Source: Halobacterium jilantaiense (GTDB lineage: Archaea; Halobacteriota; Halobacteria; Halobacteriales; Halobacteriaceae). Taken from it: a stretch of DNA of 64,000 nt. Positions 9,922-15,721 of this stretch are shown piece after piece. The DNA lies in contig NZ_FOJA01000001.1 in assembly GCF_900110535.1 (NCBI RefSeq), positions 1,054,001 to 1,118,000 of the forward strand, written 5' to 3'. The notes beneath the pieces are model-generated. The model saw nothing but the letters and a program-made list of their open reading frames with translations, was not told the DNA's origin and searched no databases. The stretch's first letter is position 1, and each line of letters opens with the position of its first letter. Position numbers and translations under genes: made by a program.

Positions 9922-9930
9922 ACATATGAG
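9922..9930 (+). promoter_or_regulatory. Possible TATA-like element for the dapA leader
   Basis: ACATATGAG lies about 23-31 bases before the leader ORF ATG at 9953, the spacing for a leaderless transcript. It is a weak match to the haloarchaeal TATA consensus. A second AT-rich stretch (GCAAAAAACC) lies at about 9869-9878. Confidence 0.35.
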
Positions 9931-9952
9931 GGCGGGGCAGCCACTCGGTAGT

Positions 9953-10039
9953 ATGACCGACGCTCCCACTGCCGTCGCCGCCGCCGGGAGCGTCGCCGCC
10001 GCTTTCTCGGGGAAACGCAAATTCACACCTGTCCGGTAG
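9953..10039 (+). CDS. Short leader ORF upstream of dapA
   Basis: A 28-codon frame, ATG to TAG, ending FSGKRKFTPVR. Both of its lysines use AAA although AAG dominates in the neighbouring genes. The codons GGG AAA CGC (10010-10018) form one arm of a 9-base inverted repeat whose other arm ends six bases before the dapA ATG. It looks like a leader peptide that senses lysine or charged tRNA-Lys. An in-frame ATG at 9926 would give 37 residues. No family is recognised, and translation is inferred. Confidence 0.4.
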   Translation: MTDAPTAVAAAGSVAAAFSGKRKFTPVR

Positions 10040-10111
10040 GCTCTCTGCGGGCGTAGCACCCCCGTGGTGGGCTCCTCGTTGTCCGCACAGTTCCCGAACA
10101 CAGCGTTTCCC
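9958..10111 (+). promoter_or_regulatory. Structured dapA leader with two strong inverted repeats
   Basis: Stem 1 pairs CGACGCTCCC (9958-9967) with GGGAGCGTCG (9986-9995), 10 perfect base pairs. Stem 2 pairs GGGAAACGC (10010-10018) with GCGTTTCCC (10103-10111), 9 perfect base pairs closing a loop of about 84 bases. The second arm ends just before the dapA start, so stem 2 could block translation or transcription of dapA. Its first arm lies in the lysine/arginine codons of the leader ORF, so a stalled ribosome would open it. The mechanism is inference; the repeats are direct observation. Confidence 0.5.
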
Positions 10112-10117
10112 ACCCAG

Positions 10118-11020
10118 ATGACGTACACACCACTCGACGGCGTCTTCCCCGCGATGACGACGCCGTTCACCGACGACGGACGTATCGACTTCGACCGACT
10201 GCGCACACACGCCCGCCGCCTCGTCGACCGGGGCGTCGACGGGGTCGTTCCCGTCGGCACCACCGGCGAGAGCGCGACCCTGACCCACGACGAGCACGTG
10301 GAGGTCGTGGCGGCCGTCGCCGACGAGGTCGGCGGCGAGGTGCCCGTGGTCGCGGGTGCCGGCAGCAACTCGACGCACGAGGCCGTCGGCCTCGCCGGGC
10401 GCTCCGTGGACGCGGGGGCCGACGCCCTCCTGCTCATCTCGCCGTACTACAACCGCCCCGAGCCGGAGGGGATAGAGGCCCACTACCGGGAGATAGCCGA
10501 CCGAATCGACGCGCCCCAAGTAGTGTACAACGTTCCGTCCCGGACCGGCCGGAACGTCGACGTGGACACCGTGGCGTCGCTGGCGAGTCACGACCGCATC
10601 GTCGGCTACAAGGCCGCCAGCGGCGACGTGGCGCGCGTCAGCGAGGTCGTCGAGCGCACCCGCGACGAGGCGTTCTCGGTGCTTTCGGGCGACGACGCGC
10701 TCACGCTGCCCGTCTGTTCGGTGGGTGGCCGGGGGGCCATCAGCGTCACCGCGAACGTCGAACCGGAGCGCGTGAGCGAGGTCGTCTGGAGCGCCATCGA
10801 CGGCGACTACGAGCGCGCCCGCGAGGTCCACCACGACCTCGCGCCCCTGCACCGCGCGCTGTTCCTGGAGTCGAACCCGATTCCGGTGAAGGCCGCCCAG
10901 GAGATTCGCGGCCACGGCCCCGCGAACTACCGCTCGCCGCTCTCGCAGCTGGGCGACGAACCACGCGAAGCACTCGAAGCCGCCCTGAGCGCGCTCTCCG
11001 AGCCGGAGGTGTCCGCATGA
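10118..11020 (+). CDS. dapA: 4-hydroxy-tetrahydrodipicolinate synthase
   Basis: Condenses pyruvate with aspartate semialdehyde, the first committed step to diaminopimelate and lysine. 300 residues forming a TIM barrel. The Schiff-base lysine is Lys165 (VGYKAAS) and the proton-relay tyrosine is Tyr137 (VYNVPSRTG). The pyruvate-binding GTTGE is near residue 45. The ATG at 10118 begins MTYTPLDGVFPAMTTPF, as in the family. First structural gene of a six-gene operon; it overlaps dapB by 4 bases. A structured leader precedes it. Confidence 0.95.
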   Translation: MTYTPLDGVFPAMTTPFTDDGRIDFDRLRTHARRLVDRGVDGVVPVGTTGESATLTHDEHVEVVAAVADEVGGEVPVVAGAGSNSTHEAVGLAGRSVDAGADALLLISPYYNRPEPEGIEAHYREIADRIDAPQVVYNVPSRTGRNVDVDTVASLASHDRIVGYKAASGDVARVSEVVERTRDEAFSVLSGDDALTLPVCSVGGRGAISVTANVEPERVSEVVWSAIDGDYERAREVHHDLAPLHRALFLESNPIPVKAAQEIRGHGPANYRSPLSQLGDEPREALEAALSALSEPEVSA

Positions 11021-11766
11021 GCGTCGGCGTGACCGGCGCGGACGGCCGGATGGGGCGGGTCGTCCGCGAGGTCCTCGACTCCCGGGGCGTCGAAGTGGCG
11101 TTCGCTGCCGCCCGCAACCCCGGAGCGGCCGGCGCACTGGACGACGAGGCCGAGTTCGCCGCCCTGCTGGACCTCCGGGAGCCCGACGCCGTCGTGGACT
11201 TCACCGCGCCCGAGGCGACCGTTCGGTACGCCGGAGCGTGCGCGGACGCCGGCGTCCCGCTCGTGACCGGAACGACGGGCTTCGACGAAGGCGAGCGGGC
11301 CGCGCTGCGGGCGGCCGGCGACTCGACGCCGGTGCTCGTCGGCGCGAACTTCTCTCGCGGGATTCAGGCGCTGCTCTCGGCCGTCGAGGCGGCCGCCGGC
11401 GCGCTCCCCGAGTACGACGTGGAGGTCACCGAGACCCACCACAACGGGAAGGTCGACGCGCCGAGCGGCACCGCCGGCCTCCTGCTAGACCGCATCGAGG
11501 ACGCCCGCGGCGAGGGCGAGCGCGTCCACGGCCGGGAGGGCGACCAGCCCCGGCGCGAGGGCGAGGTCGGCGTCCACGCGCGGCGGGCGGGCGACGTGAC
11601 CGGCGAGCACGAGGTGCTGATCGCGGGCAACAGCGAGGTGCTGGAACTGACCCACCGCGCCGGCGACCGGCGCGTGTTCGCCGAGGGCGCAGTGGACGCG
11701 GCGGCGTGGCTCGCGGCCCAGCCGGCCGGCTACTACGAGTTCTCGGAGGTGGCTGCGGACGTATGA
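11017..11766 (+). CDS. dapB: 4-hydroxy-tetrahydrodipicolinate reductase
   Basis: NAD(P)H-dependent second step after dapA. 249 residues, a normal length. The dinucleotide fold opens with VGVTGADGRMGR (residues 3-14), and the catalytic stretch ETHHNGKVDAPSGTA near residue 140 carries the substrate-binding His and Lys. The start overlaps the dapA stop (ATGA) and the stop overlaps the dapD start (ATGA), so translation is coupled along the operon. Confidence 0.95.
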   Translation: MSVGVTGADGRMGRVVREVLDSRGVEVAFAAARNPGAAGALDDEAEFAALLDLREPDAVVDFTAPEATVRYAGACADAGVPLVTGTTGFDEGERAALRAAGDSTPVLVGANFSRGIQALLSAVEAAAGALPEYDVEVTETHHNGKVDAPSGTAGLLLDRIEDARGEGERVHGREGDQPRREGEVGVHARRAGDVTGEHEVLIAGNSEVLELTHRAGDRRVFAEGAVDAAAWLAAQPAGYYEFSEVAADV

Positions 11767-12596
11767 GTCTGGAGACCGAAATTCGCGACCTGTGGCAGCG
11801 ACACGAGTCGGGAGAGCTCTCCGTCGACTCGGCGACGGCCGACGACGCGGACACCCTCGACGCGTTCCTCGACGCGCTGGAGGCGGGCGACGTGCGGGCG
11901 GCCGAGAAGGAGGGTGGCGACTGGGAAGCCGTCGAGTGGGTGAAGCGCGGCGTCCTGCTGAACTTCGCGCTCCGGGAGACCGAGCGCCGCGAGTACGGCG
12001 GCGTCGCCTACCACGACGTGCTCCCGCTGCGGGACACGAGCGACCTGCTCGCGCGCGGCACCAGAAACACGCCCGACGGCACGGTGCTGCGGCGGGGCGC
12101 GCACGTCGGCGAGGACTGCATCCTGATGTCGCCGGCGTTCGTGAACGTCGGCGCGCGCGTCGGCGACGGCACGCTCGTCGACTCCTGTGACACCGTCGGC
12201 TCGTGCGCGCAGATTGGCGCGGACGTGAAGCTCGGCGCGAACACCCTGATTGGCGGCGTCCTCGAACCGGTCGAGGACGCCCCAGTCGTCGTCGAGGACG
12301 GCGTCTCGCTGGGCGCGGGCTGCCGGGTCACCTCGGGGTTCGTCGTGGGGGAGGACTCGGTCGTCGGCGAGAACACGCTGCTGACGCCCCGCATCCCGGT
12401 CTACGACCTCGTCGAGGAGGAAGTCCTGTACGGCGAACTGCCGCCGGAGCGCCGGGCGTTCACGCGCTACGTCGAGTCCTCCGTGGGCGACCACGACCTC
12501 TTCGACGGCGGCGCGTACAAGCCCGCCGTCGTCGCGATGGACCTCGAAGCCGAGACGCTTGACGCCACCCAGCGCGAGGAGGTGTTGCGGTCGTGA
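11763..12596 (+). CDS. dapD: Tetrahydrodipicolinate N-succinyltransferase
   Basis: Transfers succinyl from succinyl-CoA to tetrahydrodipicolinate, the step that defines the succinylase variant of the pathway. 277 residues. The middle and C-terminal part shows hexapeptide repeats of a left-handed beta helix (VGARVGDGTLVDSCDTVGS and later), and the N-terminal helical domain is present. It overlaps dapB by 4 bases and lysA by 4 bases. The ATG at 11763 is fixed by the overlap. Confidence 0.93.
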   Translation: MSLETEIRDLWQRHESGELSVDSATADDADTLDAFLDALEAGDVRAAEKEGGDWEAVEWVKRGVLLNFALRETERREYGGVAYHDVLPLRDTSDLLARGTRNTPDGTVLRRGAHVGEDCILMSPAFVNVGARVGDGTLVDSCDTVGSCAQIGADVKLGANTLIGGVLEPVEDAPVVVEDGVSLGAGCRVTSGFVVGEDSVVGENTLLTPRIPVYDLVEEEVLYGELPPERRAFTRYVESSVGDHDLFDGGAYKPAVVAMDLEAETLDATQREEVLRS

Positions 12597-13837
12597 CGAC
12601 GGCGGCGGACGCGGCCGACAGCAGGGACGTGCGGCGGCTCGCCGACTGGGACGCCGACCGACTGCGCTCGCTGGCGGGCGAGTACGGCACGCCGCTGTAC
12701 GTCCAGGACCTCGACCGCGTCCGCGCGAACTACGAGCGCGTCGCTGGGGCGTTCCCCGACGCGGACGTGCTGTACGCCGTGAAGGCCAACGCCGGCGGTG
12801 CGGTCCTCGACGCCCTCCGGGCGGCGGGCGCGGGCGCGGAGTGCGCGTCCGCCGGCGAGGTGTCGCGGGCGCTCGACGCCGGCTTCGAGCCCTCGGAGAT
12901 TCATTACACGGCCGTCAATCCGCCGGCCCGCGACCTCGACTACGTCCTCGACGCCGCGCCCGAGGCGACGTTCGTGGTCGGGGCGCGCGACACCGTCGAC
13001 CGCCTCGACGAGCGCGGCTTCGACGGCCGCCTCGCGCTGCGCGTCCACCCGGGCGTCGGCGCGGGCCACAGCGACGAGGTGGCGACCGGTGCAGACGCGA
13101 AGTTCGGCGTCCCCCACGACGAGGCCGTCGCCGTCCTCGCGGACGCCGTCGACCGCGGCTTCGACGTGGTCGGCGTCCACGCGCACGCCGGCTCCGGCAT
13201 CCTCGACGCCGACGACCTCGCCGCCCACCGCGAGGTGCTCGACCGAATCGCCGCGGTCGCCCGCAGCGCGCCCGCGGACCTGGAGTTCGTCGACGTCGGC
13301 GGCGGCCTCGGTGTCCCGTACCGGCCCGAGGAGCCGGCGCTCGACCTCGGTGCGGTCGCCGACGCGGTCCGGACGGCGCTCGCCGACGTGAACGCCGACC
13401 TCGTGCTCGAACCGGGGCGCTACCTCGTGGCGGACGCGGGCGTTCTCCTGACCGAGGTGAACACGGTGAAGCCGACCGACGGGCCGACGCTCGCGGGCGT
13501 CGACGCCGGCATGACAGACCTCCTGCGGCCCGCGCTCTACGACGCCCGCCACGAGGTCCGGTCGCTCGCGCCCGGCGCGGACGCGAGAGCGAGCGACTCC
13601 GTCTCCGTCGTCGGCCCCGTCTGCGAGAGCACCGACGTGCTCGCCGCCGACCGCGACCTGCCAGCGCCCGAACGCGGCGACCTGCTCGCCGTCGGGAACG
13701 CCGGCGCGTACGGCGTCGAGATGGCATCGAACTACAACTCCCGGCCCCGGCCCGCGGTCGTCGCGCTTGACGGCGGGGACGACCGGCTCGCCCGCGAGCG
13801 CGAACCGCTGGCGGCACTCACCCGACTCGAACGATGA
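12593..13837 (+). CDS. lysA: Diaminopimelate decarboxylase
   Basis: PLP enzyme of the alanine-racemase fold that makes L-lysine from meso-diaminopimelate. 414 residues. The PLP lysine is Lys64 in YAVKANAGG. The glycine-rich phosphate loop DVGGGLGVPY and the C-terminal catalytic Cys region GPVCESTD are present. It begins with GTG overlapping the dapD stop (GTGA) and ends overlapping dapF (ATGA). It sits before dapF although it acts after it. Confidence 0.95.
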   Translation: MTTAADAADSRDVRRLADWDADRLRSLAGEYGTPLYVQDLDRVRANYERVAGAFPDADVLYAVKANAGGAVLDALRAAGAGAECASAGEVSRALDAGFEPSEIHYTAVNPPARDLDYVLDAAPEATFVVGARDTVDRLDERGFDGRLALRVHPGVGAGHSDEVATGADAKFGVPHDEAVAVLADAVDRGFDVVGVHAHAGSGILDADDLAAHREVLDRIAAVARSAPADLEFVDVGGGLGVPYRPEEPALDLGAVADAVRTALADVNADLVLEPGRYLVADAGVLLTEVNTVKPTDGPTLAGVDAGMTDLLRPALYDARHEVRSLAPGADARASDSVSVVGPVCESTDVLAADRDLPAPERGDLLAVGNAGAYGVEMASNYNSRPRPAVVALDGGDDRLAREREPLAALTRLER

Positions 13838-14661
13838 TATCCCACGACCAGTTCCACGGCACCGGCAACGACTTCGCGATTGTAGATGCAGCCCACTACG
13901 TCCCCGACAGGGCGGCGTTCGCCGAGCACGCCTGCGCCACACTCGGCGTCGACGGCGTGCTCTTCCTCGCAGTCGAACCCCAGTACACGCCGCCGCGCGC
14001 CGTCATGACACTGGTCCAGCCGGACGGCTCGACGGCCGCGATGTGCGGGAACGGCGCGCGCTGTGCCGCGCGCTGGGTCGCCGAGCGCGAGGGCGTCGAC
14101 ACCGTGATGCTGGACACGCAAGCGGGCACGCGGCGCGCCGAGGTCGACGGCGACACCGTCACCGTCGAGATGGGCGAACCGGCGTTCGACCCCGGTGCGG
14201 TGCCGGTCGCTCGCGACGAGCCGATGGTCGAAGAGTCGCTCGCCGGCTTCGCGGTGACGGCTGTGAACACGGGCGTCCCGCACGCCGTCGCGTTCGTCGA
14301 CGACGTGGACGGCGTCGACCTCGACGCCGACGCGCCCGCCGTCCGCCACCACGACGCCTTCCCGGAGGGCGCGAACGTCACGCTGGCGTCCCCGGACGGC
14401 GAGGGCGGCTTCCGCCAGCGCACGTTCGAGCGCGGCGTTGAGGGCGAGACACAGTCCTGTGGCACCGGCGCGGTGGCGATTGCGGTCGTCGCGGCGCGAC
14501 TGGGGCTGCTGGACAACGGCCGGAGCGACGTGGCCGTCCGACCGCCCGGTGGAACGCTGCGGGTCGACGTCTCGGGGGACCGCGCGCTGCTCACCGGGCC
14601 GACCGAGCGGGAGGACAGCGGGGAGCTGGAGCGACGACCCGCGAGGAGAGTCGATGCCTGA
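13834..14661 (+). CDS. dapF: Diaminopimelate epimerase
   Basis: Cofactor-free epimerase converting LL- to meso-diaminopimelate. 275 residues. The two catalytic cysteines are Cys71 (MCGNGARC) and Cys209 (QSCGTGA), both in the expected motifs. The N-terminal FHGTGNDF is the family signature. The start overlaps the lysA stop by 4 bases and the end overlaps dapE by 8 bases. Confidence 0.95.
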   Translation: MISHDQFHGTGNDFAIVDAAHYVPDRAAFAEHACATLGVDGVLFLAVEPQYTPPRAVMTLVQPDGSTAAMCGNGARCAARWVAEREGVDTVMLDTQAGTRRAEVDGDTVTVEMGEPAFDPGAVPVARDEPMVEESLAGFAVTAVNTGVPHAVAFVDDVDGVDLDADAPAVRHHDAFPEGANVTLASPDGEGGFRQRTFERGVEGETQSCGTGAVAIAVVAARLGLLDNGRSDVAVRPPGGTLRVDVSGDRALLTGPTEREDSGELERRPARRVDA

Positions 14662-15721
14662 GTTCGACCCGCTGGCGTTCCACGCGGAGGCGGTGCGGAC
14701 GCCGAGCCACGAGAACGTCGGCGAGATGCGCGCGCTCCTGGTCGACACGCTGCGCGACCACGGCGTCGACCCCGTCGTCGACGAATCGGGGAACGTCCGC
14801 GCGACCCGCGGGCGCGGCAGCCCACACGTCGTCCTGAACACGCACGTCGACACGGTGCCGCCCCACGTCCCCTTCGAGCGCGACGGCGACGTGGTGCGCG
14901 GCCGGGGAGCCTGCGACGCGAAGGGGCCGCTGGCGGCGCTGGTCGCGGCGTTTCTGGCCGCCGAACCGGAGTCGGGGTCGGTGACGCTGGCGGTCACGCC
15001 CGACGAGGAGACCGAGTCGACGGGCGCTGCGGTGCTCGACCTGGACGCCGACGCCTACGTCGTGGGGGAGCCGACAGACCTCGCGGCCTGCACGAGCGCC
15101 CGGGGGCGCTTCCAGTTCGACGTCGAGCTGTCGGGCGTCGGCTCGCACGCCGCCGACCCCGAGTCGGGCGTGAACGCCGTCGCGGGGGTCGAGCAGACGC
15201 TGGCGGCCCTGCGGTCCTTCGACGCCGAGCGCGGCCCCAGCGAGCACCCCGAACTGGGGCCGCCGACGCTGACGCCGACCCGCGTTCGGGGCGGGGACGC
15301 CGCGAACCGCATCCCAGACGAGTGTACGATTACAGTCGACCGCCGAACTGTGCCGCCGGAGACGCAGGAGGGCTTCTTCGAGGGTGTGGCGACGCACTTC
15401 CGCGAAGCAGTGTCGGAGTCCGTGGGCATCGACGTCGTGCCCGTCGAGCGCGACACGCCGTTCCTCGGAGCCTTCGAGACGCGCGAGGACGCGCCGGTCG
15501 TGGACGCGCTCGTGGACGCCGGCGCGGGGGCACCGCGGCCGTTCGGCGCTGCGACCGAGGCCTCGTACTTCGCGGCGGACGCGCCGACCGTCGTCTTCGG
15601 GCCGGGCGTGCTCGCCGACGACGAGGGGCCGGTAGCGCACGCCCAGCGCGAGTACGTCCGCCAGTCGGACATAGAGCGCGCGGCAGAGATTCTGACGGAT
15701 GGGCTCGCCTCAATGGTCTGA
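14654..15721 (+). CDS. dapE: Succinyl-diaminopimelate desuccinylase (M20 family)
   Basis: 355-residue M20 metallopeptidase. Metal-ligand motifs are visible: NTHVDTVPP near residue 62, GRGACDAKGP, and PDEETEST. Among M20 enzymes the closest role is DapE, and its place at the end of the dap operon, which also has dapD, supports that. An acetyl-lysine or acetyl-ornithine deacetylase activity cannot be excluded by sequence. It starts at 14654, inside the end of dapF. Last gene of the operon; the AT-rich island begins right after its stop. Confidence 0.88.
   Translation: MPEFDPLAFHAEAVRTPSHENVGEMRALLVDTLRDHGVDPVVDESGNVRATRGRGSPHVVLNTHVDTVPPHVPFERDGDVVRGRGACDAKGPLAALVAAFLAAEPESGSVTLAVTPDEETESTGAAVLDLDADAYVVGEPTDLAACTSARGRFQFDVELSGVGSHAADPESGVNAVAGVEQTLAALRSFDAERGPSEHPELGPPTLTPTRVRGGDAANRIPDECTITVDRRTVPPETQEGFFEGVATHFREAVSESVGIDVVPVERDTPFLGAFETREDAPVVDALVDAGAGAPRPFGAATEASYFAADAPTVVFGPGVLADDEGPVAHAQREYVRQSDIERAAEILTDGLASMV

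Follow-up and report, generated by a model that had tools for sequence, protein, structure and literature searches.

The window, which is the whole 64,000-nucleotide stretch of DNA analysed here, lies within a 2.8-Mb contig of a Halobacterium chromosome. Its forward strand carries an operon whose first gene is dapA (10118-11020), encoding 4-hydroxy-tetrahydrodipicolinate synthase and matched by the NCBIfam equivalog TIGR00674 at 321 bits. The remainder of the operon (11017-15721) is on the same strand and is composed of dapB (11017-11766), dapD (11763-12596), lysA (12593-13837), dapF (13834-14661), and dapE (within 14438-15721), each assigned by an NCBIfam equivalog above its cut-off. The order dapA-dapB-dapD-lysA-dapF-dapE represents the complete lysine branch, and the claim of an earlier note on this DNA that the operon makes lysine is borne out by these six genes.

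Upstream of dapA, also on the forward strand, is a leader peptide ORF (9953-10039) of 28 codons and a TAG stop, MTDAPTAVAAAGSVAAAFSGKRKFTPVR, that has Lys-ending counterparts at other haloarchaeal dapA genes. A TATA-like box, CATATGA (9923-9929, + strand), is read directly ~25-30 nt 5' of the ORF start and recurs in relatives. The earlier note described this ORF and proposed that a ribosome stalling at its Lys codons could open an inhibitory stem in front of dapA. Direct reading confirms the ORF and that both of its Lys codons are AAA (10013-10015 and 10019-10021); the difference in codon bias between leaders and dapA marks these two as the putative regulatory codons. The peptide does not end in Gly-Lys-Arg-Lys-Phe, as had been stated, and instead continues for four more codons, Thr-Pro-Val-Arg (TPVR), to the stop. 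The 9-base pairing described in the note is exact, with GGGAAACGC at 10010-10018 complementary to GCGTTTCCC at 10103-10111, six bases 5' of the dapA ATG at 10118, and the separate 10-bp stem (9958-9967/9986-9995) is also present. Overlooked was the element with the strongest conservation, a hairpin (10038-10075) that begins at the stop codon; it is referred to here as hairpin 2, the 10-bp stem as stem 1, and the long-range helix as P0. Folding of the 191-nt window leader is no better than that of dinucleotide shuffles (z = 0.00), and a perfect inverted repeat of 9 bp occurs in 59/1000 shuffles (5.9%) and one of 10 bp in 17/1000 (1.7%). The window sequence by itself is weak evidence against chance. 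It is in the comparison with relatives, and not in this one sequence, that selection on the ORF and the stems becomes visible.

The upstream regions of dapA were compared among genus relatives, 79 loci of GTDB genomes with named organisms, and 18 more genomes. An ORF of 23-35 codons with Lys near its end precedes almost every haloarchaeal dapA examined. The absence of any related ORF or stem would have spoken against the earlier proposal; the Lys-codon ORF is kept across the class Halobacteria and the stems covary. The leaders end in ...RLFSKKRA in Halorubrum, ...AFFSKKRAY in Haloferax, ...FLKKRP in Halogranum, ...PFSKKRV in Natronococcus, and ...SKRKRTHHY in the Haloarcula type, each directly before the stop codon, and Halobacterium leaders contain ...SFSGKRKRSTAD... 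(FSGKRKR type). Arg is found beside Lys in most leaders, and Phe is common two or three residues ahead of KKR. Rarer ends retain Lys and lack Arg (KAKPKQLF, KFKTACC, and KFFGKVGT). Start codons vary (43 ATG and 38 GTG), as do stop codons (TGA, TAG, and TAA) and synonymous codons, and therefore what is conserved is a reading frame rather than one nucleotide string. The N-terminal two thirds of the peptide, which stem 1 shapes, differ freely from genus to genus. Of the dapA loci, 74/107 have a TATA-preceded short ORF with two or more Lys among its last 12 residues, versus 0/145 loci of pheS, ilvB, trpC, trpS, and hisG. Among the sampled Halobacteria, the one clear lack is L111 (G030), where no recognisable leader lies 5' of its dapA (54% identical). 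The leader of L036 is unclear, an exception among dapA loci. L104 has no leader by the scoring used; by eye, it has an unscored KHKRKR frame and a hairpin-2-like sequence. In L094, from Halorubrum sp. CBA1125, there are seven A rather than six at the leader Lys codons and the frame is broken, possibly by a sequencing error or by natural loss of control.

In almost every relative a TATA box lies ~25-30 nt 5' of the leader start codon, often with a BRE-like CGCAAC or CGAAAC ahead of it. From this spacing, the dapA leader mRNA is probably leaderless, with the transcript beginning at the ORF start. The TATA position in the window likewise puts the predicted start at the ORF start and not downstream of 10040, the location that the earlier note had named as counting against its proposal. 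In Haloferax volcanii, 72% of protein-coding transcripts are leaderless (PMC4983044).

The Lys codons of the leaders are strongly biased. Leaders use 156 AAA and 16 AAG (91% AAA), whereas dapA itself at these loci has 4 AAA and 230 AAG (2% AAA). A sensor of tRNA charging would be expected to rely on a rare codon where it senses.

Hairpin 2 is found in nearly every lineage, directly 3' of the ORF. It has an outer helix of five or six pairs and an inner helix of five, with a small internal loop between them, and the inner helix is capped by a 9-nt loop around GURGC. In the window (+ strand), the outer arms are at 10039-10043/10069-10073 and the inner arms at 10047-10051/10061-10065, the 9-nt loop has a GUAGC core, and a covariance model (R1) matches this element in its own genome with an E-value of 3.4e-6. 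The inner helix is perfect in 54/54 ungapped distinct sequences, compared to a mean of 43 when arms are swapped between loci, and the outer helix has at least five pairs in 50/54. In an alignment of 42 sequences, 93.5% of cells pair and there are 33 double changes, compared to 13 in shuffles (0/500). These covariation tests are uncorrected for relatedness; compensatory types (GCGGG/CCCGU, GCAGG/CCUGU, and GCGAG/CUCGU) nonetheless recur in distinct genera. The covariance model matches 123/145 Halobacteria and 51/58 genera, essentially only at dapA, and it found no hairpin 2 in ~100 non-haloarchaeal genomes of the same phylum. Eighteen of the 20 listed genomes without a match have dapA, and most of these 18 have a Lys-ending ORF and a diverged hairpin 2 below the threshold. 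The other two haloarchaeal genomes (G006 and G106) have neither a dapA match at the E-value used nor a match to the hairpin, the RNA being absent along with the gene. The second copies examined in a few genomes lie inside other genes or without leader context and were set aside as chance matches.

Stem 1 lies in the 5' part of the ORF. In the window, its 5' arm is CGACGCTCCC (9958-9967, + strand) and its 3' arm is GGGAGCGTCG (9986-9995, + strand), the latter ending 17 nt ahead of the first Lys codon. Across leaders it has 4-12 bp, mostly 7-11, and recurs with unrelated sequences. In 78 leaders, pairing is better between the two arms of one leader than between arms exchanged among loci (0/200, mean z -1.3).

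P0 pairs the Lys/Arg codon region with sequence beyond hairpin 2. In the window (+ strand), its 5' strand is GGGAAACGC, which spans the Gly-Lys-Arg codons (10010-10018), and its 3' strand is GCGTTTCCC (10103-10111); both strands are supported by comparison of the Lys-codon region with swapped partners. Outside the window, the exact sequence of this pair is limited to the closest relatives (L005/L018, and shortened in L006). The pairing GGGAAACGC/GCGUUUCCC in the window has its equivalents in Halogranum (CGUCCGUA/UACGGACG), Haloferax (AACGUGCGU/ACGCACGUU), Halegenticoccus (CGCCCGU/ACGGGCG), and Halostella (CGCGUGAC/GUCACGCG), and the predicted helix of the window is the local form of this covarying long-range helix. 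The stem over the Lys codons noted earlier has counterparts with entirely different sequences in other genera, although the best conserved structure is the other hairpin. Own partners of P0 beat swapped partners over all leaders (0/300) and in 44 non-redundant lineages (0/500). Reversed-sequence controls score nearly as high and the excess is modest, and in one Halobacterium group (L008-L015) the helix is weak or missing. P0 is likely to be real, but is less certain than hairpin 2.

The spacing of these elements is constant even as peptide length and stop position vary between leaders. In every leader measured, 13-24 nt (median 15) separate the last Lys codon from the outer arm of hairpin 2 on its 3' side. 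The stop codon is never more than 9 nt (median 5) 5' of hairpin 2, and in some Halobacterium, Halarchaeum, and Natrinema leaders it is inside the hairpin. A ribosome of typical footprint would just clear hairpin 2 while waiting at the last Lys codon and would overlap its first arm once at the stop codon. By this spacing, ribosomes at the Lys codons and at the stop codon are placed for different effects on the helices. Comparison of the leaders establishes the ORF, its Lys codons, their bias, the spacing, and three predicted helices. Two further pairings were no better than swaps. One is a switch between the 3' arm of stem 1 and hairpin 2, hinted at by a few Halobacterium sequences; the other is a conserved helix between the 3' half of hairpin 2 and downstream sequence. 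The stem 1 3' arm and hairpin 2 have no conserved complementarity, and folds of the leader with a ribosome-sized block gave no clean two-state switch.

Because bacterial attenuators come in sets, leaders were also sought at chosen amino acid genes, namely pheS, ilvB, trpS, trpC, hisG, and thrC. Most of 30 genomes (L127-L156) have an ORF upstream of pheS that ends in ...GFGFFFA before the stop, of the type MASEP...GFGFFFA. The pheS leader of the window's own genome is MASEPSAGRTRREPAARLGFGFFFA (L150, G000:C1), 5' of the pheS match at 1633002-1633934 on the minus strand. A TATA box lies ~25-30 nt 5' of the pheS leader start, and a conserved CGAAACC...GGAACCGnTAAC is found between the leader ORF and pheS. 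A helix between the Phe codons and sequence downstream of them at pheS was not significant. At ilvB, 28/30 genomes (L157-L186) have a leader ORF ending in ...IIVGA, ...IRIVGAL, or ...AIVGV, that of the own genome being MQSHTARSAVLAGSGVAVGLGIVGA (L272, G000:C1:351200-353500). A hairpin, AGGGGC...GCCCCU (GUAGGGG/CCCCUAC), spans the Val-Gly-stop codons of the ilvB leader and is followed by a pyrimidine-rich, G-poor tract; together these look terminator-like. One trpS paralog has a WRW or WQWRW leader, then GADS..., at 13/13 loci (L217-L229; L221 in the own genome). At this trpS, a conserved GAGCGGACAGT lies inside the leader ORF, and a CUCACUCCGUUCUC-like sequence follows 3' of it. Cognate leaders were not found 5' of the other trpS paralog, trpC, hisG, or thrC. 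A conserved short ORF without Leu enrichment (e.g. MTRDERVRSEDRGSRLTAAGREILRR) lies just 5' of, or overlaps, the start of a LeuA/CimA-like gene at L274-L280, L282, L284, L286, and L293. When TATA-preceded short ORFs are counted by amino acid alone, Phe is found at 11/30 pheS loci versus 1/222 elsewhere, Ile/Val at 25/30 ilvB loci versus 0 elsewhere, and Trp at 9/13 loci of the WRW-type trpS paralog versus 5/239 elsewhere. That the amino acid fits the gene four times independently (Lys, Phe, Ile/Val, and Trp) is the strongest argument for codon-based sensing.

These observations point to the 165 nt 5' of dapA as a lysine-responsive leader-peptide attenuator, a reading to which we give a probability of about 80%. 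Transcription would begin at the leader start codon or no more than a few bases from it. A ribosome would then translate a leader of 23-35 codons that has between one and several Lys codons near its end, almost all of them the rare AAA. When charged tRNA-Lys is scarce, the ribosome would wait on a Lys codon and mask the 5' strand of P0 and the 3' arm of stem 1, leaving hairpin 2 free to form (ON). When lysine is plentiful, the ribosome would reach the stop codon, overlap the first arm of hairpin 2, and leave. After its release, P0 would form around hairpin 2 and expression of dapA-dapE would be lowered (OFF). We infer that stalling senses lysine, that P0 together with hairpin 2 is the OFF state, and, as in the earlier note, that a stem is inhibitory and could be opened by stalling. 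The results support that earlier idea as right in kind, with one detail of the ORF wrong and its case understated.

The favoured output is premature transcription termination. The same sensor could instead control dapA translation or mRNA stability, which is a possible reading though clearly the less probable one. The distance from hairpin to dapA differs widely between loci, and there is no U-tract terminator 5' of dapA, where the spacer is C/A-rich with 9% T; both fit an output on translation or stability, and the second counts against a transcriptional one. Translational sequestration of the dapA start is nonetheless not favoured, as the start is predicted to be 0.57-0.59 accessible whether the ribosome is absent, at Lys, or at the stop, and an SD-like motif that could be hidden is absent from 80/82 leaders. 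Four points favour a transcriptional output: this unchanged access, the few leaders with an SD-like motif, the terminator-like appearance of the ilvB GC hairpin and its tract, and the transcription-translation coupling reported in Haloferax (PMC8576121). In H. volcanii, termination is reported at T-stretches and at a hairpin structure as well (PMC7237163).

An arrest peptide would sense lysine through the nascent chain rather than through decoding. Here F-S/L-K-K-R would stall the ribosome upon binding free lysine or another ligand, as in TnaC or the arginine attenuator peptide. The frequent Phe before KKR and Arg after it, and a stop usually within a few codons, would suit such a peptide. However, conserved sequence beyond the cognate residue was not found in the dapA leaders, in which Phe and Arg are common and not universal. 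Lys alone is kept throughout, in contexts as different as KKR, KRKR, KPKKR, KAKPKQLF, KFKTACC, KFFGKVGT, and PKRTDDY. The strong preference for the rare AAA points to decoding and not to the peptide, and the pheS, ilvB, and trpS leaders have entirely different cognate residues. An arrest peptide is therefore unlikely. Slightly less likely again is that hairpin 2 is a metabolite-binding riboswitch or a site for a lysine-regulator protein, with the ORF incidental. Its conserved GURGC loop core and its essentially single-copy, dapA-specific occurrence would fit such a site, but an amino acid aptamer would be expected to be larger than its 38 nt and 11 pairs, and Rfam scans of the leader brought no family to threshold, including the lysine riboswitch (RF00168) and T-box. 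Moreover, such a site leaves the Lys codons, the AAA bias, the spacing, and the cognate leaders elsewhere unexplained. That the ORF encodes a functional small protein 5' of dapA by chance is very improbable, because, for all its leaderless start, its conserved position, and the many small proteins that haloarchaea express (PMC4983044), its N-terminal two thirds are free to vary within the shape of stem 1, the peptide has no Pfam match, and the amino acid follows the downstream pathway in four cases.

The lysine attenuator at dapA would then be part of something wider. The dapA leader is conserved class-wide, and haloarchaea have at least three other cognate leader peptides besides it. It is probable, though a little less so than the reading of dapA itself, that haloarchaea have a general, class-wide leader-peptide attenuation (Lys at dapA, Phe at pheS, Ile/Val at ilvB, and Trp at a trpS paralog) with its own RNA structures and apparently leaderless mRNAs. 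Amino acid attenuation is a textbook bacterial mechanism that needs translation to follow close behind transcription. If true, this system would have no described precedent among archaea, and it would imply functional coupling of transcription and translation in this domain. A leader set conserved over many genera would provide a directly testable natural readout of archaeal coupling, with H. volcanii as a tractable host. It would also provide a new route to predict amino acid regulation in haloarchaea and suggest a function for short upstream ORFs that were catalogued by dRNA-Seq without interpretation.

Such ORFs have been reported in H. volcanii. The dRNA-Seq study of Babski et al. (2016, Table 2) lists uORFs of 26 aa 5' of pheS (HVO_2948) and of 23 aa 5' of a trpS (HVO_A0127) (PMC4983044). 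The kinds of gene and the approximate lengths match the Phe and Trp leaders described here, and we infer that they are the same leaders, the peptide sequences being unprinted there. They are independent evidence for transcription of leaders of the pheS and trpS type. The study did not read the uORFs as attenuators, dapA and ilvB are absent from its table, and control by structured leaders was considered untypical of haloarchaea (PMC4983044). In the searchable open-licence literature on leader peptides, attenuation, and uORFs, no description of amino acid attenuation in archaea was found, and an earlier report may exist elsewhere.

In bacteria, lysine genes are mostly under the control of the L-box riboswitch. 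The lysine riboswitch (RF00168) resembles the dapA leader in being a lysine-responsive leader RNA 5' of lysine-pathway genes. It differs in that the conserved sensor here is a translated ORF with Lys codons, and the dapA leader has no Rfam match. The closer likeness is to the ribosome-mediated attenuators of bacteria. Unlike these, the haloarchaeal system is archaeal, is confined to Halobacteria as far as searched, and has a leader mRNA that is apparently leaderless; the dapA leader in particular has lysine as its signal, no U-tract terminator, and no match to an Rfam family. The dapA leader probably works like a bacterial attenuator rather than being a strict member of the class, as the U-tract terminator, a criterion taken from bacterial transcription attenuators, is absent 5' of dapA. 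The likeness extends to several features. Bacterial attenuators (trp, his, thr, leu, ilv, pheA, and pheST in Enterobacteria; ilvB/leu/trp in Actinobacteria; e.g. PMC1262725, PMC11857589) also have a short uORF that is rich in cognate codons, and pheS and ilvB are under such control in bacteria too. In both systems, the helices are so placed that the strands masked by a ribosome differ according to whether it is at the regulatory codons or has reached the stop codon.
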